A stretch of 64,000 bases of DNA from Meiothermus sp. Its GTDB lineage: Bacteria; Deinococcota; Deinococci; Deinococcales; Thermaceae. Positions 9,649 to 28,432 of the stretch are shown here, in pieces; within the stretch, counting starts at the first letter, position 1; each line of letters begins with the position of its first letter. Both the position numbers and the translations under genes were made by a program. Under the pieces are notes generated by a model. The model was given only the letters and a program-made list of their open reading frames with translations, did not search any database and was not told the DNA's origin. The DNA is taken from positions 44,096-108,095 of the forward strand of contig NZ_JANXCG010000038.1 in the NCBI RefSeq assembly GCF_025060375.1. Reading direction: 5' to 3'.

Positions 9649-11967
9649 CTACGACAAGCGGAACCGGGCCAGGTTGCCCGCAAGCTGGGCGGCCAGAATG
9701 CGCATCCCTTCGGCCGAGCGGCGGCCTTCCTGGCTTTGCTCGTTGGTTTTCTGGGCGGTCTGGGCAATCTTCTGCATGGCCTGATCTACCCGCTCCACCG
9801 CACCTACCTGGATCTGGGCCAGGCTCGAGATTTCCTGGGCTAGGTGGGCTGACTGGGCGGCGAGCCGGGCGATATCCTCCAGGCGGCTTCCCGCGGTTTG
9901 GGCTACGGTGTGGCCGGTCGTTACCTCCCGCACGCCTTCCTGCACCCGTTCCACCACCCGTTCAACCTCGCCTTGCACCTGCTGGACCAAAGCGCCTACC
10001 CGGGCAGTCTCGCGGGCCGATTCTTCGGCCAGCTTGCGGATTTCTTCAGCCACAACAGCAAAGCGGCGTCCCGCTGGGCCTGCTCCGGCAGCTTCAAAGG
10101 CGGCGTTCAGGGCCAGCAGGTTGGTTTGGGAGGCGAATTCCTCGAGCACGCGGGTTATGCTCTCAATTTCCGCCGAGCGCTCCGCCAGTTTTTGCACGCT
10201 TTCAGCGATGGCCTGCATCTCGCCTCGGATGTCGCTCATGCTGGAGAGGGTCTGGGTTACGGCCTGCTGGCCCTGCTGGGCGGCCTCGAGCGTCTCCTGT
10301 GCGGCCTGTGCGGCACCGCCAGCTCGCTCAGCCATCTGCCGAATTCCCTGGCTGAGCTGGCGAGTCTCCTCCTGTACCTGACGAACCTCCCCGGCTTGGG
10401 TGAGTGCGCCCATGGCGATGGATGCGGTGAGCTGGTCTACCTGGGTGGCGCTCCGGTTCACCGACTCGGCGGCCTCCTTGACCCCCTTGAGCAGGTGAGC
10501 GATCTCCTCCACGGTGAAGTTAACCGCGTCCACCACGCTACCCAGCACGTCCTCGGTTACCTCGCCCCGACGGGTCAGGTCGCCCTTGGCTATCTCGGTG
10601 GCGACGTCCAGGAACCGGCGCACGTTTTCCTGAAGCCGCAGACCCCGCTGGCGCTCCGCTTCTTGCTGCTCCATCAGGCTTCTCAGGGTCAGGATGGATT
10701 GGTTGAGGGTCTTACCCACCAGGCCCAGCTCGTCCCTCGAGCGCAGCCGAACCAGGGAGGAGAGGTTCCCCCGGCCCAGCTCGGCCGCGGTCTTGCTCAG
10801 CTCGCCCAGGGGGGCCAGGATGGAGTTGAGCACCCCGAGGATCAGCCAAAGGGAGAGGGCCAGGGCGAAGAGTACGATGAACAAGCTGAGCACCTGCCGG
10901 TTGACCAGGTGGCCCAGCCGCTCGTCCAGCGCGCTGTTGAGCTGGTTAAAGCTCGCGTTCTGGAGGGCAAAGTAGGCTTCGATGGGCCGGCTTAGTTGCT
11001 CGTAGAACAGCGTCGGGTTGAGGTTCATCCGTCGGCTGAGCACCTCTCGGCGGGCCAGCTCTACTGCTCCTTCGGTAATGGCTCGAGCTGAGGAAACCTG
11101 CTCGCCAAGGCTGCTTTCCAGGTTGGGGCTGGCCTGGAGGGCGTTTTGTATGGAGCGCTCCAGGCTGGCCGTAACCGAGGGAATCTCCCAGGGCTGGCTG
11201 TTGCGGCTGGTCAGGGCCATCAGCAGACCGCTGAGACGGCGTTCTTGATCGGGGCTAAGGGTTTTGGATTGCAGCGCTGCGCTGCCCAACCCCTGCACCA
11301 GGCTTAGGGCCTCCATGACCTGGGGCAGGCGGTAGACCACGCTGTCCACCAGCCAGTAGACCTGGACGGTGGGGTCGAGCAGGAGGTTTGACTGGGCGGC
11401 AATCTGCTCGTTGAGGGCAAAGAGCTGCTGGACCAGCTGGGTGTGCTCCCGGATGTAGAGCTCAGCGTTGGTGTTCAGGGCCAGGGTGGTGTCCCAACGA
11501 ACCTTTAGGGCCTCCAGCCTTTTGCCTAGGCCTAGGGGGTCGCCCTCGCTGCGAAGGGTCTGCTCCAGCAGGGCGAAGCCGCGGTTGACCTCCTCGGCCT
11601 TTTGGCTCCGTGGAATCGCCAGTTCCTGGTTTCCGGACAAGACCGCCGCGCTCATGCTCCGGTGTTCGGAGATGTTTTTGATGAGGGTGCTGGTGTGCTG
11701 GAGCAGCAGCGCCCCTTGCTTTTCTGCCCGCACGAAGTTGATGTCGGCCTGCTGCTCCAGCACCAGCGAAAAGAGCAGGTAGAAAAGGGGGAACAGCAGG
11801 GGGAGTACCAGAAGCGCCAGCTTGTAGGGGATGCGCAGGTTGCCGAAGAACCCAGTGATGGGTGCCTCTAGAAGCTCGGCGTCTACCCGCAGCTTGCGCG
11901 GTTGGGCACCCAGGAGGCCCACCTGTTTGACCTCGACTTCGTGGAATTCGCGCTGCAAGGCCATCAT
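9649..11967 (-). CDS. Methyl-accepting chemotaxis protein
   Basis: Two TM regions, HAMP, signalling tip [28 protein letters not shown]. Confidence 0.9.
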
Positions 11968-11976
11968 CTCCTCCGC

Positions 11977-14235
11977 TTAGGCGGGCAGCCGGAAGCGCGA
12001 GAGGCCCTGGTTTAGCTGTTGGGCCAGCGCTTGCAGCTCCTCAGCAGTTTGGCGGCCCCTGCGGCTTTCCTCGTCGGTCTGCAGGGCGGTGTTGTAGATG
12101 TCCTGCACCAGGTCGGTTACCCCCTCAACCCGGGTCACCTGCGCCTCTGCAACCTTGGCCAGGCGGCGGGCCGCCTCTGCGGTCTGCTGGGAAAGCGCGG
12201 CGATTTGCTCGAGCTTGTTACCCGCCTCGGTGGCAATGCGATAGCCCTGCTCCACCTCCCGGGTGCCGCCTTCCACCGAGATCACCACGCCCTGAATCTC
12301 GCTTTGGATGCCCTTGACCAGCTGGCTCACACGCTGGGCCGCACGGGCGGCGTCCTCGGCCAGCTTGCGCACCTGGTCGGCCACCACCGCAAAGCGGGCG
12401 CCGGCCTCGCCGGCCCCAGCGGCCTCAATGGCGGCGTTCAGGGCCAGCAGGTTGGTTTGTTTGGCGATGCGGGAGATGGTGTCCACCACCTCGGAGATTT
12501 CCAGCGAGCGGTCGGAAAGGCCCTTGATGCTCTTGGAGATGCTCTGTACCTCCCGGCGGATGTTCTGCATGCCAAAAAGGGTGTTCTGCACAGCGGTTTG
12601 CCCTTCGAGAGCAACCTCCTTGGCCCGCAGCACCAGGGCTGTGCCCTCAAGGATTTGCTGGGTCATCCGGCGAATCTCATCGGTGGTGTCCAGGGCCTCA
12701 ATGCGAGCCCGGGCCGAAAGCTCGGCCTGAGACTCGGCTTTTTCCTGCACCCGCCTCGAGCTCTCGGCCATCTGGGTTGCGCCTTGGTTCACCCTCTCAG
12801 CAGCGGTTTGCACCTGTTTGAGCAGGTAGGCGATCTCCTCTACGGTAAGGTTCACCGCGTCCACCACGTTGCCCAGCACATCCTCGGTCACGCGGCCCCG
12901 CTTGGTCAGGTCGCCCTGGGCAATCTCCATGGCCACGTTCAGGAAAGCCGCAATGTTTTCCTGCAGGAGGCGGCTTTGGCGGAGTTGCTCCGCGTCGGCC
13001 TCGGCTTTTGCCCTGAGCTGGGCCACGCTGTCGTTGAAGGTGCGGGCCAGCGAGCCCAGCTCATCGGCCGACTGCACCGGCACCTGTACGCTCAGGTCGC
13101 CCTTGCGGAGCCGGTTGGAGGCTGCGAAGAGCTGGGCCACCGGCTGGGCGATGGAGCGGGCCACCGCGCCCACCAGGGTAAAGGTGAGGGCCAGGGCCAG
13201 GGCGATGCCCACGAAGATCAGAAGTTGCTCCTCTAGGAGCGTAGCGATGCGCTGTTCCACCAGCCGCTCTATCCGGTTCATTAGGGCCAGGTTGTAGGTC
13301 TCCAGCCCCTCCAGGGCCTGGTCAAAGGCCGCGGTGTACTGGCTGGGCCGGTAGGTGAGGCGGGGTGGGGTGGCCACTTCATTGACCGCCAGGGCGTAGG
13401 CCTCCCGGACCAAGGCGTCGGCTCGGGAATAGTCCTCCAGGAGGGGCTCCAGGCCTGGGTTGAGCCGTGCCGCACCCTCCAGCTCCCGGGCCAGCTCGCT
13501 CAGGGTCTGGTTGATGCGGCGAGCCATGGCGCTTACCTCCACCCGCTCGGCAGGGCTGAGGCTTCCCCGGCTCAAGGCGTACTGCCCCAGGTTGCGCAAC
13601 CGGGAAAGCTCCAGGTAAAGCCCCGGAAGGCTGTCGATCACCGAGCGTTGTAGGTAGTGGATGTCCACTGCGGGGAGCATGGACAGGCCTGACTGGTTTC
13701 CGGTCTCCTCCATCAGGTCGCGCACTTCCTGAGCCAGCACCTGGCTGGCTTCAAAGCTGTTCAGCGCGCTGATGGTCGGACCCTGGTTTTTGATCCGCTC
13801 CCAGTCGTAGCGAATTTGGGCGATTTTTTCGGTTAGCCCCCAGCCCCAGCGCTCACCCAGGGTGGTGTTGAGCTGGCCTAACTCCTCCAGCCAGGCGTCT
13901 ACCTGTGCGGCAATGGTCTCGGCCTGGGCACTTTGGGCCTCCAAGGCCCGCTGATACTGGCTACTGCCGAAGAGCAACTTCTGGACCACCCTTAGGTAGT
14001 CCAGACCGACGTAAGCGCTGTAGCTGGCCTCAAAGCGCTGGGCATTCTCGCGGTACAGCAGGAGCGTGGTCAGGGCGATGGGGGCTAGGAAGGCCAGACT
14101 GATTAGGAGGAGCTTCTGCCAAATTTTGAGCGAACCCAGCACCCCTCCGCTGGGGAGGAGCAGGGTGGTGCCAGGGGATGGGGCGCGCCGCCAGGGAGGG
14201 CGTAGGGCGGCGGGTTTGGGGCTGGGCTGGGTCAT
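11977..14235 (-). CDS. Methyl-accepting chemotaxis protein (PilJ-like)
   Basis: TM, HAMP, signalling tip [27 protein letters not shown]. Confidence 0.9.
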   Translation of the reverse strand: MTQPSPKPAALRPPWRRAPSPGTTLLLPSGGVLGSLKIWQKLLLISLAFLAPIALTTLLLYRENAQRFEASYSAYVGLDYLRVVQKLLFGSSQYQRALEAQSAQAETIAAQVDAWLEELGQLNTTLGERWGWGLTEKIAQIRYDWERIKNQGPTISALNSFEASQVLAQEVRDLMEETGNQSGLSMLPAVDIHYLQRSVIDSLPGLYLELSRLRNLGQYALSRGSLSPAERVEVSAMARRINQTLSELARELEGAARLNPGLEPLLEDYSRADALVREAYALAVNEVATPPRLTYRPSQYTAAFDQALEGLETYNLALMNRIERLVEQRIATLLEEQLLIFVGIALALALTFTLVGAVARSIAQPVAQLFAASNRLRKGDLSVQVPVQSADELGSLARTFNDSVAQLRAKAEADAEQLRQSRLLQENIAAFLNVAMEIAQGDLTKRGRVTEDVLGNVVDAVNLTVEEIAYLLKQVQTAAERVNQGATQMAESSRRVQEKAESQAELSARARIEALDTTDEIRRMTQQILEGTALVLRAKEVALEGQTAVQNTLFGMQNIRREVQSISKSIKGLSDRSLEISEVVDTISRIAKQTNLLALNAAIEAAGAGEAGARFAVVADQVRKLAEDAARAAQRVSQLVKGIQSEIQGVVISVEGGTREVEQGYRIATEAGNKLEQIAALSQQTAEAARRLAKVAEAQVTRVEGVTDLVQDIYNTALQTDEESRRGRQTAEELQALAQQLNQGLSRFRLPA

Positions 14236-14987
14236 GTTTCCACCTCCAGGCCGTGGTCACTGGCGCTGTCCAGCAGGAAACCGGCGAAAAGGGGGAGTGC
14301 GCTGAGGGCAACCGCCAGGAGAATGAAAAGGTTGAGGGAAAGGAGGCCCTGCAGAACGACCTGGGCGTGGGGGGTATCAGGGTTGGGGGTGAAGCGAACC
14401 GCCAGCATGGCGGTGTAGTGCATGAGGGGGATGGCCAGGCCGGTTAGGGTAGCGGTAAGCAGGTTGCGCATGGGTACTCGGTCGAAAGCAGGGCTGGTGA
14501 GGGTCCACATCCCGAAGGTGCCCAGCGCTATGGCCACCAGCAAGGAGAGGGCCACCAGGGGTGGGTTGAAGCTTAACTTGGCATCAAGCTGCATCGCCAG
14601 CATGCCGGTGTAGTGCATGGCCCCGATGCCGGTGCCCAGGAAGAACCCTGCCCCCAGCACCCCGAGCCCCCCCACCTTAGGCCTGCGTACCATTTGGAAA
14701 GCGGCCGCAGCCCCCAGGATGGCCAGCAGGACGGAGACCAAAGTGAGCAGGGGATCGTAAGAGACCAGCAGGTTCTCAAGCCGTAAAGCGGTCATGGCGG
14801 TAAAGTGCATGGCCCAGACCCCCATTCCGTAGGTGAAGGCGCCCATCCAGAGCCAAAGGGGGCTTCGGTTGCCCTGGCGCAGCCGGCGGATGACCACCAG
14901 GGCGGCGTACGAGGCAAAGATGGCGATGAAAAACGAGGTCCCCACCAGCAGGGGGTCGTGGTGCATTGGAAGGTGGTTCTGTTCCAT
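14232..14987 (-). CDS. Standalone MHYT-domain integral membrane sensor
   Basis: Motifs AMHFTAM, AMHYTGM, LMHYTAM spread over a polytopic protein. Confidence 0.88.
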   Translation of the reverse strand: MEQNHLPMHHDPLLVGTSFFIAIFASYAALVVIRRLRQGNRSPLWLWMGAFTYGMGVWAMHFTAMTALRLENLLVSYDPLLTLVSVLLAILGAAAAFQMVRRPKVGGLGVLGAGFFLGTGIGAMHYTGMLAMQLDAKLSFNPPLVALSLLVAIALGTFGMWTLTSPAFDRVPMRNLLTATLTGLAIPLMHYTAMLAVRFTPNPDTPHAQVVLQGLLSLNLFILLAVALSALPLFAGFLLDSASDHGLEVET

Positions 14988-14988
14988 A

Positions 14989-15447
14989 TCAACTCCTTTC
15001 CACCCGGCCTGGGAGGATTGGCCGGGGGGAGGAAACCTCCTGGGAGAGGTAGGTGAGAAGGCGGGGAGGGTCTAGGAGACCAATTGGCCTGCCTCCTTCC
15101 TCCACCAGGCCGCTGAGAACGGGGGTCTGGCTGGGCCTTGGATTTGACAGAACAGCGTGGGCGAGCCCGACCACCTCGTCAATCCAGAAAGCCAGAGGTT
15201 GCCCTGCCGCATCCACCAGGGCGGCCAGTCCTGGCTCAGCTGGGATGGTCTCTAGAACCAGGCTCAGGTCAAAGAGGGGAACCGCCTGGCCCTGGTGGGC
15301 GAAAAGCCCCAGCAAGGGCCTGGGTACCAGAGGTACAGGGGTGAGCTGTCCCACCTCCAAGACCCCCTTGAAGGCCTTTGGGGCTATTCCCAAAAGAGTA
15401 CCGCCCAAGCGCAGCACCCAGATTGGCCCGAAGGCGGCGGGGGTCAT
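14989..15447 (-). CDS. CheW-like adaptor
   Basis: CheW pattern (ILPKAFKGVLEVGQLTPVPLVPRPLLGLFAHQGQAVPLFDLSLVL, VDEVVGLA-like FWIDEVVGLA); operon context. Confidence 0.75.
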   Translation of the reverse strand: MTPAAFGPIWVLRLGGTLLGIAPKAFKGVLEVGQLTPVPLVPRPLLGLFAHQGQAVPLFDLSLVLETIPAEPGLAALVDAAGQPLAFWIDEVVGLAHAVLSNPRPSQTPVLSGLVEEGGRPIGLLDPPRLLTYLSQEVSSPRPILPGRVERS

Positions 15448-15455
15448 GGGGTAGC

Positions 15456-15812
15456 CTAGAGCAGTTCCTGCACCGCTTTGCGCAAGGCCTCAGGGGTGTA
15501 GGGCTTGGTTAGATAGCCGTTGGCCCCTTGCCGCTTGCCCCACTCGATGTCGGTGGGTTCGCCCTTGGAGCTTATGATCAGCACGGGGATGTGCTTGGTG
15601 GCTTCGTTGCGCCGCAGCGAGCGTAGGATTTCGTAGCCGTTGCGGCCCGGCATTACCACGTCCAGCAGCACCGCATCGGGCTTTTCCGCTTCTATGCGTT
15701 GCTCCACGTTTTCGCTGCCCTGGTAGAGCACCACTTGGTGGTAGGGGGAGAGAGCACTTTCGATTAGCTTCAGGTCAGCCAGGGAGTCGTCTATTGCAAT
15801 GAGCTTTGCCAT
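15456..15812 (-). CDS. Single-domain response regulator (CheY/PilH-like)
   Basis: MAKLIAIDDSLADLKLIE, VLLDVVMPGRNGYE, YLTKPYTPEALRKAV. Confidence 0.88.
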   Translation of the reverse strand: MAKLIAIDDSLADLKLIESALSPYHQVVLYQGSENVEQRIEAEKPDAVLLDVVMPGRNGYEILRSLRRNEATKHIPVLIISSKGEPTDIEWGKRQGANGYLTKPYTPEALRKAVQELL

Positions 15813-15989
15813 AACTTCCTCCGGTTGCACAGGGGGTGAGGGCGGGCCGCTGTCCTCCCCCGCGGGATACCCCTAAGTTACGCGAACCGTGACTTGCCTC
15901 CTGTGACGGATGCACGACCTGGTTTCGGTGGGGCGTTACGTGGGCCAGGGGTGGAGTTGTTTGTGGGAAAATCCCTGTTGGGAGGTGCC

Positions 15990-16447: not shown

Positions 16448-16786
16448 TTAGCCCCTCTTGCCTAGGCGCTCCTGCACCGCTTTGGCCAGCTCCTCGGCCT
16501 TGACCTTGGCTTGCTCGGCGGCCTGCTGTACCTGTTCGCTCAGGTGCTTGAGCTGGTCGGGAATCCCGTCTTTATCCCTGTCCAGACTGGCTTTGAACTC
16601 CTCAAACCGGGTCCTGGCCTGCTCGGCGGCCTGCTTGGCCTGGTTTAGAAGGCCCTCGAGCTGGTCTGGAACCCCGTCTTGGTCCCTGTCCAGGCTGGCC
16701 CGAACCTCGCTGATCTTGGCCTCGGCTTGTTTGAGGGCGTTTTCGGCGGTTTCTCGGGCCCTTTGGGCGAGTTCTCTGAGGTCCAT
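16448..16786 (-). CDS. Small Ala/Gln/Glu-rich helical protein with two DxDxDGxxD motifs
   Basis: Start MDLRELAQRARE after GGAGGGG; internal 36-aa repeat with DRDQDGVPDQ and DRDKDGIPDQ. Confidence 0.75.
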   Translation of the reverse strand: MDLRELAQRARETAENALKQAEAKISEVRASLDRDQDGVPDQLEGLLNQAKQAAEQARTRFEEFKASLDRDKDGIPDQLKHLSEQVQQAAEQAKVKAEELAKAVQERLGKRG

Positions 16787-16835
16787 ATCCCCTCCTCTAA
16801 ACATCCTAGCACCGCAGGATGAGCCAGGTGCAAGC

Positions 16836-18326
<1,491 letters not shown>

Positions 18327-18372
18327 ACCTCCTCCTGGATGGCGATTCTAACGCAGGCTGTCCCTGCTCAAA

Positions 18373-18393
18373 TTTTAGATTTATAATCTAAAA
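18373..18393. promoter_or_regulatory. Perfect 21-bp palindrome overlapping a consensus -10 (TATAAT), candidate operator
   Basis: TTTTAGATT-TAT-AATCTAAAA; TATAAT at 18382-18387; ATG at 18395. Confidence 0.75.
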
Positions 18394-18394
18394 G

Positions 18395-19612
18395 ATGAAA
18401 CGCCACAAGGAGTTTGCCAACCGCCTGCACGCCCTTTCCCCCCGCTTCGCCTACATCCCCAGAGAGGATCGCTTTCTGATGGACCCGGGGCCCCTCAAGT
18501 ACCGCTTCAACGTCATTGGGGTGGGGGTTAATGGCCAGGAGCACATCGCGGTGACCCTGCTCGAGGGCCGCTGTACCGTCCACGGGGTCTACGACCCCAA
18601 CCCTCTGAGTGTGGAGGCGGCCCGCCGGGTCAAGGCCCGCTTTTCCGACGAGCCCCTGGTGGTCTACGAGAGCCTCGAGGCGGCCTGCTCGGACCCCCAG
18701 GTGGATGCGCTCATCATCTGCACCCCCAACCACACCCACCTAGAGGTGCTCAAGGTGGCCGTGCAGTCGGGCAAGCACATCCTGTTGGAGAAGCCCATGG
18801 CCACCAACATTCCCGATGCCTACGAGATATGGCAGATTGCGCAGAACTACCCTAAAGTGCTCCAGATTGGCCTTCAGTACCGCTATAAGCCCATCTATGT
18901 GGAGGCCATCCACGAGGCTAAGGTGCGCCGGAGCCTGGGGGAGATCAAGACCATCACCATCCTCGAGCACCGCGAGCCTTTTTTGGACAAGGTGGGCCAG
19001 TGGAACAAGTTTTCCAAATACTCGGGTGGAACCTTGGTGGAGAAGTGCTGCCACTACTTTGACCTCTTTAACCTCTTCGCTGAGTCGCGGCCGGTGAGCG
19101 TGTACGCAGTGGGTAGCCAGGCCGTTAACTTCAGGGAATTCGAGTACCGCGGTGAGCGCTCAGATATACTGGACAACGCCTTTGTCATCGTGGAGTACGA
19201 AAACGGGGTGCGGGCCAACTTCAACCTCTGCATGTTTGCCCCTATGGTCTACGAGGAGATCGTGATTTGTGGCGACGAAGGACGTCTCAAGGCCAGCGAA
19301 GGGGTGAACGGCCAGGCCTACTCCAGGTGGGCGAACTATCTGGAGGTTGTTGCCCTTCCAGACCGTACCTCCCGCACCATGACCCCAAGCTACCCGGCCA
19401 TCATCGAGGAGACCGGACACAGTGGGGCTACCTACCACGAGCACCTACGCTTCATCGAGGCCATGGACGGCCAGCCCACCTCTGCCGCTACCGCAGAGGA
19501 AGGCTTCTGGAGCGTGGTGGTGGGGGTTGCGGCGGAGGAGTCGGTGAGGCGGGGCCGCAAGGTGCTTATTCAGGAGCTGCTGGCCGAGCACGGCCTGGCC
19601 CATCTGGCCTAG
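18395..19612 (+). CDS. Gfo/Idh/MocA family oxidoreductase
   Basis: [11 protein letters not shown] Rossmann motif; [13 protein letters not shown]. Confidence 0.92.
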
Positions 19613-25167: not shown

Positions 25168-25180
25168 GCGCAGCTTGGCC

Positions 25181-26170
25181 ATGTGGCTTTCCGAAATCGC
25201 CCAGCGCTTAGGGGGACGGCTCGAGGGGCCCGACCTGAGGGTGTCCCGGCTAGCCCCTCCGGAGGAGGCCCGGCCAGGAGAGCTGGTGGTGGTGCGGGAG
25301 GAGCGCTACCTGGAGGCTGCCTTAGCCAGCGGTGCGGCTTTGTTGATGGAGGAGGGTGTACCCTGCCCTGCTTCCATCAGCCGCGTGCGGGTGGCTTCCG
25401 TTTACAAAGCCTGGCCCGAGGTGCTGGCGTTGTTTGACCAGCCTGAGCGCTGGGCTGCTCCGGGCGTCCACCCCACCGCCGTTGTGGAAGCAGGGGCCCA
25501 CATAGACCCCACGGCTGCGGTGGGGGCCTACGCCTATGTGGGCTCGGGGGCCCGTGTTGCGGCTGGGGCGGTCGTAGCCCCTTACTGCTACGTGGGCGAG
25601 GGGGTGGAGGTGGGTCCCCGGACGGTGCTGGAACCCCGGGCTACGCTCTATCCGAATACCCGGGTGGGCGCTGACTGCCGGATTGGGGCCGGGGCGGTGC
25701 TTGGGGTGGTGGGCTTTGGCCTTCAGGATGGGCAGCGGTTGCCCCATGTGGGGAGGGTGGTGCTGGAGGACGGCGTGGAGATAGGGGCCCACTGTGTGGT
25801 CCAGCGCAGCGTGGTAGGGGAGACACGGATTGGGGCCCAGACCAAGATTGGGGACCTTACCGATATCGGTCACAACGTGCGGATTGGTCGCCGGGTGGTC
25901 ATGGTGGGCAGCAGTGGGGTAGGAGGAAGTGCGGTCATCGAGGATGAAGCCCGCTTGGGGGGGTGGGTGGCCATCTCCGACCACGTGCGGGTAGGGCGGA
26001 GGGCCACGGTGGCTGGCGGCAGCGCGGTCTCCAAAACCGTGCCGCCAGGAGAGGTTTGGGCCGGAGGGGTTCCTGCCCTCCCTATCCGTCGTCACTGGCG
26101 CCGTTTGGCCCTGCTGGAGTGGCTTTTGGAGGCCGAGCGGGCCTTGCGTAGGTTGGTGAAGGGGGCATAG
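25181..26170 (+). CDS. lpxD: UDP-3-O-acylglucosamine N-acyltransferase-like (LpxD)
   Basis: N-terminal LpxD-like domain followed by left-handed beta-helix hexapeptides; IGDLTDIGHNVRIG. Confidence 0.88.
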   Translation: MWLSEIAQRLGGRLEGPDLRVSRLAPPEEARPGELVVVREERYLEAALASGAALLMEEGVPCPASISRVRVASVYKAWPEVLALFDQPERWAAPGVHPTAVVEAGAHIDPTAAVGAYAYVGSGARVAAGAVVAPYCYVGEGVEVGPRTVLEPRATLYPNTRVGADCRIGAGAVLGVVGFGLQDGQRLPHVGRVVLEDGVEIGAHCVVQRSVVGETRIGAQTKIGDLTDIGHNVRIGRRVVMVGSSGVGGSAVIEDEARLGGWVAISDHVRVGRRATVAGGSAVSKTVPPGEVWAGGVPALPIRRHWRRLALLEWLLEAERALRRLVKGA

Positions 26171-26941
26171 ATGGGCCAGCCGGTGGTGGTCCGGGGGGTT
26201 GGGCTGCACACCGGCGAGCCGGTGGTGGTGCGCCTTCACCCTGCCGAGGGGCCAGTGCGCTTTTGGGTGAGTGGGGTGGAGCTTCGCCCTTTGGCGTCGG
26301 CGGTGGTGGAAACTGCCCGCTGCACTGCGCTGGGCCGAGGATCCTTGCGGCTTCTCACGGTGGAACACCTGCTGGCGGCGCTGTACATACGGGGCATCTG
26401 GGAGGGTTTGGTGGTTGAGGTCTCAGGCCCCGAGATTCCCATTTTGGACGGGAGTGCCCAGGAGTGGTTGGAGGCCCTGCAGGGATTCCCCTCTCGCGGG
26501 CCGCAACCGGTTTCGCTCAGCGGTTCAATTAGGGTAGAGGAGGGGCACAGCCGTGTTTTGGCCCAGCCTAGCGAGGTTTTTTCCGTTTCTGCAACCATTC
26601 TGTTTCCCCACCCCAAGATTGGCTATCAGCAGGTGGTCTCGCCCCCGGTGGCCCTGGAAGAGCTGGCTCGAGCCCGGACCTTTGGCTTTTTGGAAGAGGT
26701 GGAGGCCCTGAGGGCCCGTGGCCTCATCCGAGGGGCTTCACTGGAGAACGCCTTGGTCTTCAACCAGTACGGCTATGTCAATACCCCCCGGATGCTCTTT
26801 GAGCCCGTGTACCACAAGGCCCTAGACCTTCTGGGCGACCTGTACCTGGCGGGCAGGCCCTACCGGGGCCGTTTCATTGCACACCGGGGCTCCCACCGGT
26901 TGCACGTGGAGCTAGCCCGGTTGCTGCAGGATTTGGGTTAG
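26171..26941 (+). CDS. lpxC: UDP-3-O-acyl-N-acetylglucosamine deacetylase-like (LpxC)
   Basis: GVGLHTGEPV, LLTVEHLLAAL, EIPILDGSAQEW, ARTFGFLEE, HKALDLLGDLYL. Confidence 0.92.
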   Translation: MGQPVVVRGVGLHTGEPVVVRLHPAEGPVRFWVSGVELRPLASAVVETARCTALGRGSLRLLTVEHLLAALYIRGIWEGLVVEVSGPEIPILDGSAQEWLEALQGFPSRGPQPVSLSGSIRVEEGHSRVLAQPSEVFSVSATILFPHPKIGYQQVVSPPVALEELARARTFGFLEEVEALRARGLIRGASLENALVFNQYGYVNTPRMLFEPVYHKALDLLGDLYLAGRPYRGRFIAHRGSHRLHVELARLLQDLG

Positions 26942-27011
26942 TTGACCGTGGGATTTCGGTGTATCATCACTGCGGGAAACGCAGGGTTACGTATCGCGTA
27001 GTGGAGATTTT

Positions 27012-27971
27012 ATGGAGCTAAATGTAGGTGTGGTGGGCGTGGGCGTGATGGGAACGTACCATGCTCAGGTCTACGCAGGGTTGCCCGGAGTTCGGTTGGT
27101 GGGTGTGGCAGATCCGGACCCTTTCCGCCAAGCGGCCATTGAACAGGACCTGGAGGTTCCTGCCTATCCCAACCCGGAGGACCTACTGGGGAAGGTTCAG
27201 GCGGTTTCCATCGCATCGCCCACCTCCTTTCACTACGAGCAGGCTCGGATGTTTCTGGAGGCTGGGGTGCATGTGCTTCTGGAAAAGCCCATGACCCGTA
27301 CCCTCAGGGAAGCCCAGGAACTGGCGCGAATTGCTGAGCGGCGCGGGGTGGTCCTGCAGGTGGGCCACATCGTGCGCTTTTACCGGGCGGTGGGCGACCT
27401 GATGCAGATGGTGAGGAGCCCCTGGGTGCTCGAGGCCCGGCGTATGAGCAACAACCGCCGTATCCGAGACATTGGGGTGGTGCTGGACCTGATGATTCAC
27501 GACCTCGATCTGGTCCTGCTGCTTTTGCGCGAGAAGCCCCTTCGCTACAGCGTGGTGGGCCGACGGGTGGATGGGTTGGATGAGTTTGCCCAGGCGGTGG
27601 TGGACTTTCCCTCAGGGGCCCGGGCCCTCTTTACCGCCAGCCGCATCTCGCCCCAGGCTGAGCGTTCGCTCACCATCACCCAGCCTGGAGAGGTGCTGCG
27701 GCTGGACTTCAACAGCGAATACACCGAGCTCTCCGTGCACCGCAGCCCTCCGGTTCACCCCGACCCCGACCAAGGGGTGCCCAACGGGCGCACCCAGGTG
27801 CAAACTGAGCGCATCGCTATCCACAACGAGAATCCCCTGCGCCGTCAGCTCAAGCACTTCGTGGACCGCATTCAGAAGGGCGAGCCCCCCTTGGTGACCC
27901 TCGAGGACGACCTGCAGGCCCTCGAGCTGGCCCTCGAGCTCTCCTCTGCCCTTCAGCCGGTGGGCGTCTGA
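27012..27971 (+). CDS. Gfo/Idh/MocA family oxidoreductase in lpx-like cluster
   Basis: VGVVGVGVMGTYHAQVY; GVHVLLEKPMTRTLREAQEL. Confidence 0.9.
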   Translation: MELNVGVVGVGVMGTYHAQVYAGLPGVRLVGVADPDPFRQAAIEQDLEVPAYPNPEDLLGKVQAVSIASPTSFHYEQARMFLEAGVHVLLEKPMTRTLREAQELARIAERRGVVLQVGHIVRFYRAVGDLMQMVRSPWVLEARRMSNNRRIRDIGVVLDLMIHDLDLVLLLLREKPLRYSVVGRRVDGLDEFAQAVVDFPSGARALFTASRISPQAERSLTITQPGEVLRLDFNSEYTELSVHRSPPVHPDPDQGVPNGRTQVQTERIAIHNENPLRRQLKHFVDRIQKGEPPLVTLEDDLQALELALELSSALQPVGV

Positions 27972-27988
27972 CCCCTTAGTATAAGGTT

Positions 27989-28432
27989 GTGGATATCTAC
28001 GAAATTTTGAGGTTTCTGCCCCACCGCTACCCTTTTTTGCTCATTGACCGGGTGCTGGAAGCCGACGAGAGGAGGTTTCGCGCCATCAAGAACGTGACCT
28101 TTAATGAGCCCCAGTTTCAGGGGCATTTTCCCGGTCACCCCATTATGCCGGGGGTGCTGCTAATTGAGGCGATGGCCCAAGCCTCGGTGGCGGTGGTGGT
28201 CCAGCAACCCGAGTTCAAGCCGGGCATGTTGGTCTTTTTGGTGGGGGTGGAGGAGGCTCGGTTCCGCAGGCCGGTGGTGCCGGGGGATACCCTGCTCCTG
28301 GAAGGGGAACTGTTGGGCTATCGGCGTGGGCTGGGCAGGGTACGGGTTGAGGCCCGGGTGGAGGGGGAGCTCAGGGCCGAGGCCACCTTGAGCTTTGTGC
28401 TGCGCTCGGAGAGCGGGGGGAGGGTTGCGTGA
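27989..28432 (+). CDS. fabZ: 3-hydroxyacyl-ACP dehydratase FabZ
   Basis: FLPHRYPFLLIDRVLE, FQGHFPGHPIMPGVLLIEAMAQ; GTG start. Confidence 0.95.
   Translation: MDIYEILRFLPHRYPFLLIDRVLEADERRFRAIKNVTFNEPQFQGHFPGHPIMPGVLLIEAMAQASVAVVVQQPEFKPGMLVFLVGVEEARFRRPVVPGDTLLLEGELLGYRRGLGRVRVEARVEGELRAEATLSFVLRSESGGRVA

Follow-up and report, generated by a model that had tools for sequence, protein, structure and literature searches.

The window analyzed here is a 64,000-nt stretch of the Meiothermus sp. contig NZ_JANXCG010000038.1, with a GC content of 65%, and belongs to the genome GCF_025060375.1 (G000, hereafter the source genome). It contains a divergent gene pair: glpK, encoding glycerol kinase (16836–18326, minus strand), and a gene with a leaderless-type start (18395–19612, plus strand) whose 405-residue Gfo/Idh-fold product is a predicted NAD-dependent sulfoquinovosidase of family GH188, hereafter SqgA. 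Between them lies the perfect 21-bp palindrome TTTTAGATT-TAT-AATCTAAAA (18373–18393, plus strand), referred to below as dyad B. The original prediction described this element as a perfect inverted repeat with 9-bp arms, AT-rich in a GC-rich background and placed between divergent glpK and a Gfo/Idh gene; the exact sequence and the flanking gene calls bear this out in full. The window has no other perfect 9-3-9 inverted repeat, and of its 9-bp-arm repeats (spacer 0–8) this alone is AT-rich. The 21-bp palindrome had no match in 100 dinucleotide shuffles, and when the 68-bp intergenic region was shuffled 20,000 times, just 30 trials produced any 9-bp-arm repeat.

Elsewhere in the window, sqgA and pstB converge tail-to-tail with a 4-bp overlap (19609–19612), and a small protein (16448–16957, minus strand) carries two D-R-D-x-D-G-(V/I)-P-D-Q-L repeats resembling calcium-binding loops. 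As judged from translations, a row of LpxD-, LpxC-, GnnA-like Gfo/Idh and FabZ-like genes (25175–28432, plus strand) suggests lipid-A-type functions, while two tandem methyl-accepting-chemotaxis-like proteins with MHYT-, CheW- and response-regulator-like genes (9649–15830, minus strand) form a probable chemosensory operon.

The palindrome contains the sqgA −10 element TATAAT (18382–18387, plus strand), which ends 7 nt before the ATG at 18395, both positions being as predicted. An evident −35 is absent at this promoter. Every one of the 22 sqgA orthologs has its −10 element (TATAAT, but TACAAT in one) 6–9 nt ahead of the start codon, a spacing expected of leaderless transcripts, the type proposed originally. 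In Deinococcus-Thermus, it is common for open reading frames to be leaderless and to adjoin a −10 element (PMC12340547).

On the other side, glpK has a candidate −10, TAGAAT (18345–18350, minus strand), and several relatives carry TAGAAT or TACAAT at the corresponding position. The candidate glpK −35 region would abut or overlap the putative operator described below, so glpK may be co-regulated. The two genes are adjacent in 11 of the 22 ortholog loci; glycerol would be a product of SqgA action on sulfoquinovosyl glycerol, a possible reason for the presence of glpK beside sqgA. Ownership of the site by glpK was ruled out: the conserved block stays with sqgA even where glpK is not adjacent, and thus belongs to the rightward gene.

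The best PDB matches of the 405-residue protein are 8zn9, 8qc2 and 8qc3 (1.6e-64 to 1.9e-60), with the next oxidoreductase at 3.5e-19; 8qc2 is a GH188 structure (PMC11465081). In SqgA, sulfoquinovose and its sulfonate are contacted by K107, Y136, R166, L170, K172, E189, H193 and H321 (PMC10755693). These align with K133, Y162, R193, L197, K199, E216, H220 and H342 of the Meiothermus protein, all eight being invariant across six aligned orthologs, while the counterpart of SqgA Glu163 (PMC10755693) is ambiguous in the alignment. The protein is a relative of NAD-dependent sulfoquinovosidases (SqgA, GH188). An inositol dehydrogenase was considered and rejected, as the IolG model scored 120 bits against a cut-off of 355.

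Orthologs of sqgA were found in 18 of the 18 genomes of the genus searched (one being the source genome) and also in two sister genera, represented by four genomes, with Calidithermus as one of the two. Named records place the gene in Meiothermus, the closest named ortholog being that of M. luteus (96% protein identity). Across the 18 Meiothermus loci, the majority-base share averages 0.97 from −6 to +16 around the palindrome versus 0.47 in the 56 bp further upstream. The palindrome arms are exact in 14 of the 18, and the remaining four have 1–2 mismatches. Both sister genera have lost the right arm of dyad B and carry, directly ahead of the same TATAAT, a displaced core, TTTTGAATCTAA. Inspection by eye of the regions upstream of distant homologs (Chloroflexi, Bacilli, Marinomonas) found no such site. 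The last ~45 codons of sqgA occur again ~0.9 kb downstream in Calidithermus chliarophilus (L019 3600–3737).

Such a block could be merely a strong AT-rich leaderless promoter, a −10 element with its flanks, with no regulator involved. The consensus −10 at leaderless spacing, in a phylum where leaderless −10 elements are common, speaks for this explanation, but the conservation spans about 22 positions, far more than a hexamer, and the motif, as detailed below, is restricted to three functionally linked promoters and tracks the presence of a GntR gene. We regard a promoter without a regulator as highly improbable.

The original prediction had called for a genome-wide search with the palindrome. 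This search returns a single match: with up to three mismatches, no further copies exist in the window or in the 2.39-Mb source genome, and taken alone the result would have implied a one-gene site. A regulon surfaced only through stray matches in relatives and a relaxed pattern. Weaker palindrome matches in relatives, located ahead of a GntR gene divergent from a UxaA-like gene, first led to the candidate regulator. With one mismatch allowed, ATTTTRNATYYAAAAT matches exactly three places in the source genome, G007 and G013, namely the sqgA promoter, the gap between gntR and the divergent operon (suy), and the tauE promoter; in G016, it matches the same three places plus one more. The control, the reversed pattern, had no matches in any of the four genomes. 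Without mismatches, ATTTTAGATNTANAATC matches two places in the source genome, the sqgA promoter and the gntR/suy gap (control, 0). A third class of sites, GATTTTGAATCTAAAATC, precedes a TauE/SafE sulfite exporter gene (assigned by Pfam PF01925) in nine of the nine genomes read, the source genome included, where the −10 of tauE is TATAAA; the −10 lies 6 nt before a GTG start. The motif is therefore found at a few functionally linked promoters and is rare elsewhere (three places, control 0), the distribution expected of an operator. Another search pattern, TAGATNNNNNATCTA with one mismatch, was discarded as it performed at chance level (5 matches versus 8 in the control).

The gene for the candidate regulator lies away from sqgA, on contig C22 of the source genome (G000:C22:9080–9727). 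Its G016 ortholog matches the GntR winged helix (PF00392, 59.7 bits) and the FCD domain (PF07729, 113.1 bits). An ortholog is present in 22 of 22 genomes with sqgA, all of which have the operator, as GATTTTAGATATAAAATC or a close variant, in the divergent promoter region of suy and gntR. Among 26 more distant genomes, only G019, G029 and G037 have the GntR ortholog, with the operator beside the gene in all three; each of two of the 23 distant genomes lacking the ortholog has one stray operator match. Site and regulator gene thus co-occur across genomes (22/22; 3/3 versus 2/23). In G037, which is outside the family, the gntR-side site is a complete palindrome, TTTTAGATATAGAATCTAAAA. The operator and gntR are farther apart in G008, where over 100 bp of unrelated DNA, self-complementary in part and resembling a small mobile insertion, lies between them (L172, about 1330–1467).

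Another transcription factor might bind these sites, the GntR gene being just a neighbor of the suy operon. Protein and site are joined by genomic linkage only, and the source genome encodes several further GntR proteins; against this, the operator occupies the divergent promoter region of the GntR gene wherever an ortholog exists, and gene and site coincide even in distant genomes. We consider a different factor very unlikely.

Comparison of the three sites refines which dyad this GntR/FCD protein would recognize. The suy and tauE sites have in common an 18-bp dyad of 7-4-7 architecture (dyad A; consensus GATTTTAGATWTAAAATC), which at sqgA reads AATTTTA-GATT-TATAATC (18371–18388, plus strand), with the −10 element inside its right half-site and its axis displaced by 3.5 bp from that of the 21-bp palindrome. 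At sqgA, 6/7 half-site pairs are kept in most species and 5/7 in the source genome; the deviation arises because the right half is TATAATC rather than TAAAATC, a difference that also makes for a better −10. Dyad B is perfect or near-perfect at Meiothermus sqgA, where its right arm CTAAAA is conserved, whereas at suy, across the 22 genomes with an sqgA ortholog, just 3–6 of its 9 pairs are kept. Since the 18-bp dyad is common to all three sites and dyad B is poor at suy, we take 18371–18388 as the putative shared operator, and the 21-bp palindrome would be a second dyad overlapping it. With dyad A imperfect at sqgA and a near-perfect dyad B largely specific to that gene, either axis may be the one bound.

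The operon divergent from gntR contains genes for SAF-domain and GD_AH proteins, a D-2-hydroxyacid dehydrogenase, an Ldh2-type dehydrogenase, an ABC importer, an isomerase-like protein and a PfkB kinase. A DeoC/LacD aldolase gene is added in G016, a closed Meiothermus genome; the source-genome contig ends ahead of the corresponding position. Also in G016, sqgA and the suy operon are separated by genes resembling a type I restriction-modification set (L195 4847–11463). Pfam matches for predicted SuyAB, SlcC and ComC are PF08666, PF20629/PF04295, PF02826 and PF02615. Separate SAF small and GD_AH large subunits beside SlcC/ComC-type dehydrogenases suggest a SuyAB sulfolactate sulfo-lyase, as this split pair with SlcC/ComC-like dehydrogenases is the layout of SuyAB clusters (PMC12421959). 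The same subunit layout, together with the bit scores (galactarate model, 136 versus 731 bits), led us to reject a galactarate/altronate dehydratase for the UxaA-like gene.

Of the genes of a sulfo-EMP-type sulfoquinovose pathway, isomerase-, kinase- and aldolase-like candidates are seen in the cluster. The isomerase has a sole NCBIfam match, the sulfoquinovose isomerase SftI (NF048012), and the Ldh2-type ComC is best matched by L-sulfolactate dehydrogenase (NF040650), both far below the equivalog cut-off. The aldolase matches sulfofructosephosphate aldolase structures among LacD relatives, more weakly than tagatose-bisphosphate aldolases. No sulfolactaldehyde dehydrogenase was found in the suy cluster, the source contig ending before the aldolase. 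In Chloroflexi, the sqgA homolog and a suyB-like gene adjoin each other.

The regulon may serve another organosulfonate, for instance, sulfofucose or another sulfonated glycoside. In Paracoccus grown on sulfofucose, a related set of SlcC/ComC, SuyAB and a TauE homolog has been proposed to work in concert (PMC12421959), and the isomerase and kinase are remote from characterized enzymes. Since the sulfoquinovose-contacting residues are kept and the genes are similar in kind to those of published GH188 clusters (PMC11465081), we judge a substrate other than sulfoquinovose to be unlikely.

The reading we favor, with a probability of roughly 75%, is that the palindrome contains the predicted operator of a GntR/FCD regulator controlling a small sulfosugar regulon. 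Weighing against it are the half-site mismatches of sqgA to dyad A beside a largely sqgA-specific dyad B, the displaced variant in place of dyad B in the two sister genera, the missing sulfolactaldehyde dehydrogenase in the cluster, and the low NCBIfam scores of the isomerase and ComC. The original prediction, in which a dedicated sugar/polyol regulator acts as a repressor at this site, gains support from comparative genomics, which makes it more specific: the sugar is most likely sulfoquinovose, the regulator would be GntR/FCD, and the sites number three. The sites, their co-occurrence with the regulator gene and the gene content are direct observations; binding, sign of regulation, inducer, 5′ end and enzyme activities are inferred. 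A GntR dimer would bind the 18-bp dyad at sqgA (18371–18388) and, as the −10 TATAAT falls within the right half-site, would exclude RNA polymerase from the leaderless promoter. At the divergent suy operon, the same operator covers the −10 (TAAAAT); at tauE, it covers the region just upstream of the −10.

As occupation of a −10 should block polymerase, the regulator probably acts as a repressor, with a sulfonate metabolite probably relieving the repression. Sequence does not reveal the sign of control, and an activator or dual regulator could be imagined in its place; every site, however, either overlaps or adjoins the core promoter, as is typical of repressor sites, which makes this alternative quite unlikely.

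In the proposed pathway under this repressor, the suy operon would supply SuyAB, the SlcC/ComC sulfolactate dehydrogenases, an ABC importer, an SftI-like isomerase and a PfkB kinase, with a LacD/YihT-type aldolase also in G016. Sulfoquinovose or its glycoside would be imported, and SqgA would free sulfoquinovose (and glycerol for GlpK). The isomerase–kinase–aldolase sequence would lead to sulfolactaldehyde and then sulfolactate, from which SuyAB would release sulfite for export by TauE. A pathway acid would bind the FCD domain and lift repression; sulfolactate is the most plausible ligand, since the regulator adjoins a suyB-like gene in G019 and G037, in which our searches found no close sqgA ortholog.

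An unnamed palindrome thereby becomes part of a predicted three-promoter regulon with a candidate regulator and a consensus site, and Meiothermus acquires a nearly complete predicted route from a sulfolipid sugar to sulfite. Sulfoquinovose, which is the sugar of sulfolipid in plants and cyanobacteria, is plentiful wherever there are cyanobacterial mats, and Meiothermus would thus have a place in sulfur cycling there. Our literature searches found no paper on sulfoquinovose catabolism in Meiothermus, none containing both sulfoglycolysis and Deinococc-, and no GntR regulator of sulfoquinovose or sulfolactate genes. We tentatively suggest, at somewhat less than even odds, that this is the first sulfosugar regulon in Deinococcota, that the −10 of a leaderless promoter itself forms part of the operator of a sulfonate-sensing FCD regulator, and that the two overlapping sqgA dyads allow two binding registers.

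Several known systems resemble this one in part. SqgA (GH188, PMC10755693) shares its eight substrate-contacting residues with the Meiothermus protein, in keeping with the top PDB matches; the Meiothermus gene differs in being encoded apart from the pathway genes and in its leaderless-type start, and the N terminus of its product is longer by roughly two dozen residues. The published GH188 clusters that include fucose-isomerase-like genes and a sulfolactate sulfo-lyase (PMC11465081) have in common with Meiothermus an isomerase, a kinase, an aldolase, a phosphoglycerate-dehydrogenase-like gene, SuyAB, an ABC transporter and a regulator; they differ in a Tyr at the sulfonate-site Leu170, where Meiothermus has Leu197, and no sulfolactaldehyde dehydrogenase was seen in the Meiothermus cluster.

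Regulators of the GntR/FCD (FadR) subfamily likewise combine an N-terminal GntR and a C-terminal FCD domain, and likewise have a palindromic AT-rich site between the regulator gene and a divergent operon. The box of the FadR/LldR relatives is TNGTNNNACNA, unlike the 7-4-7 Meiothermus operator, and the target pathway here, sulfosugar/sulfolactate breakdown, also sets the Meiothermus regulator apart from them. CsqR (YihW) is a DeoR-family protein and so belongs to a different family from the Meiothermus GntR/FCD regulator. In E. coli, CsqR is a local regulator of a sulfoquinovose gene set (PMC10991401), the role proposed here for the GntR/FCD protein, from which it differs also in operator and pathway enzymes.
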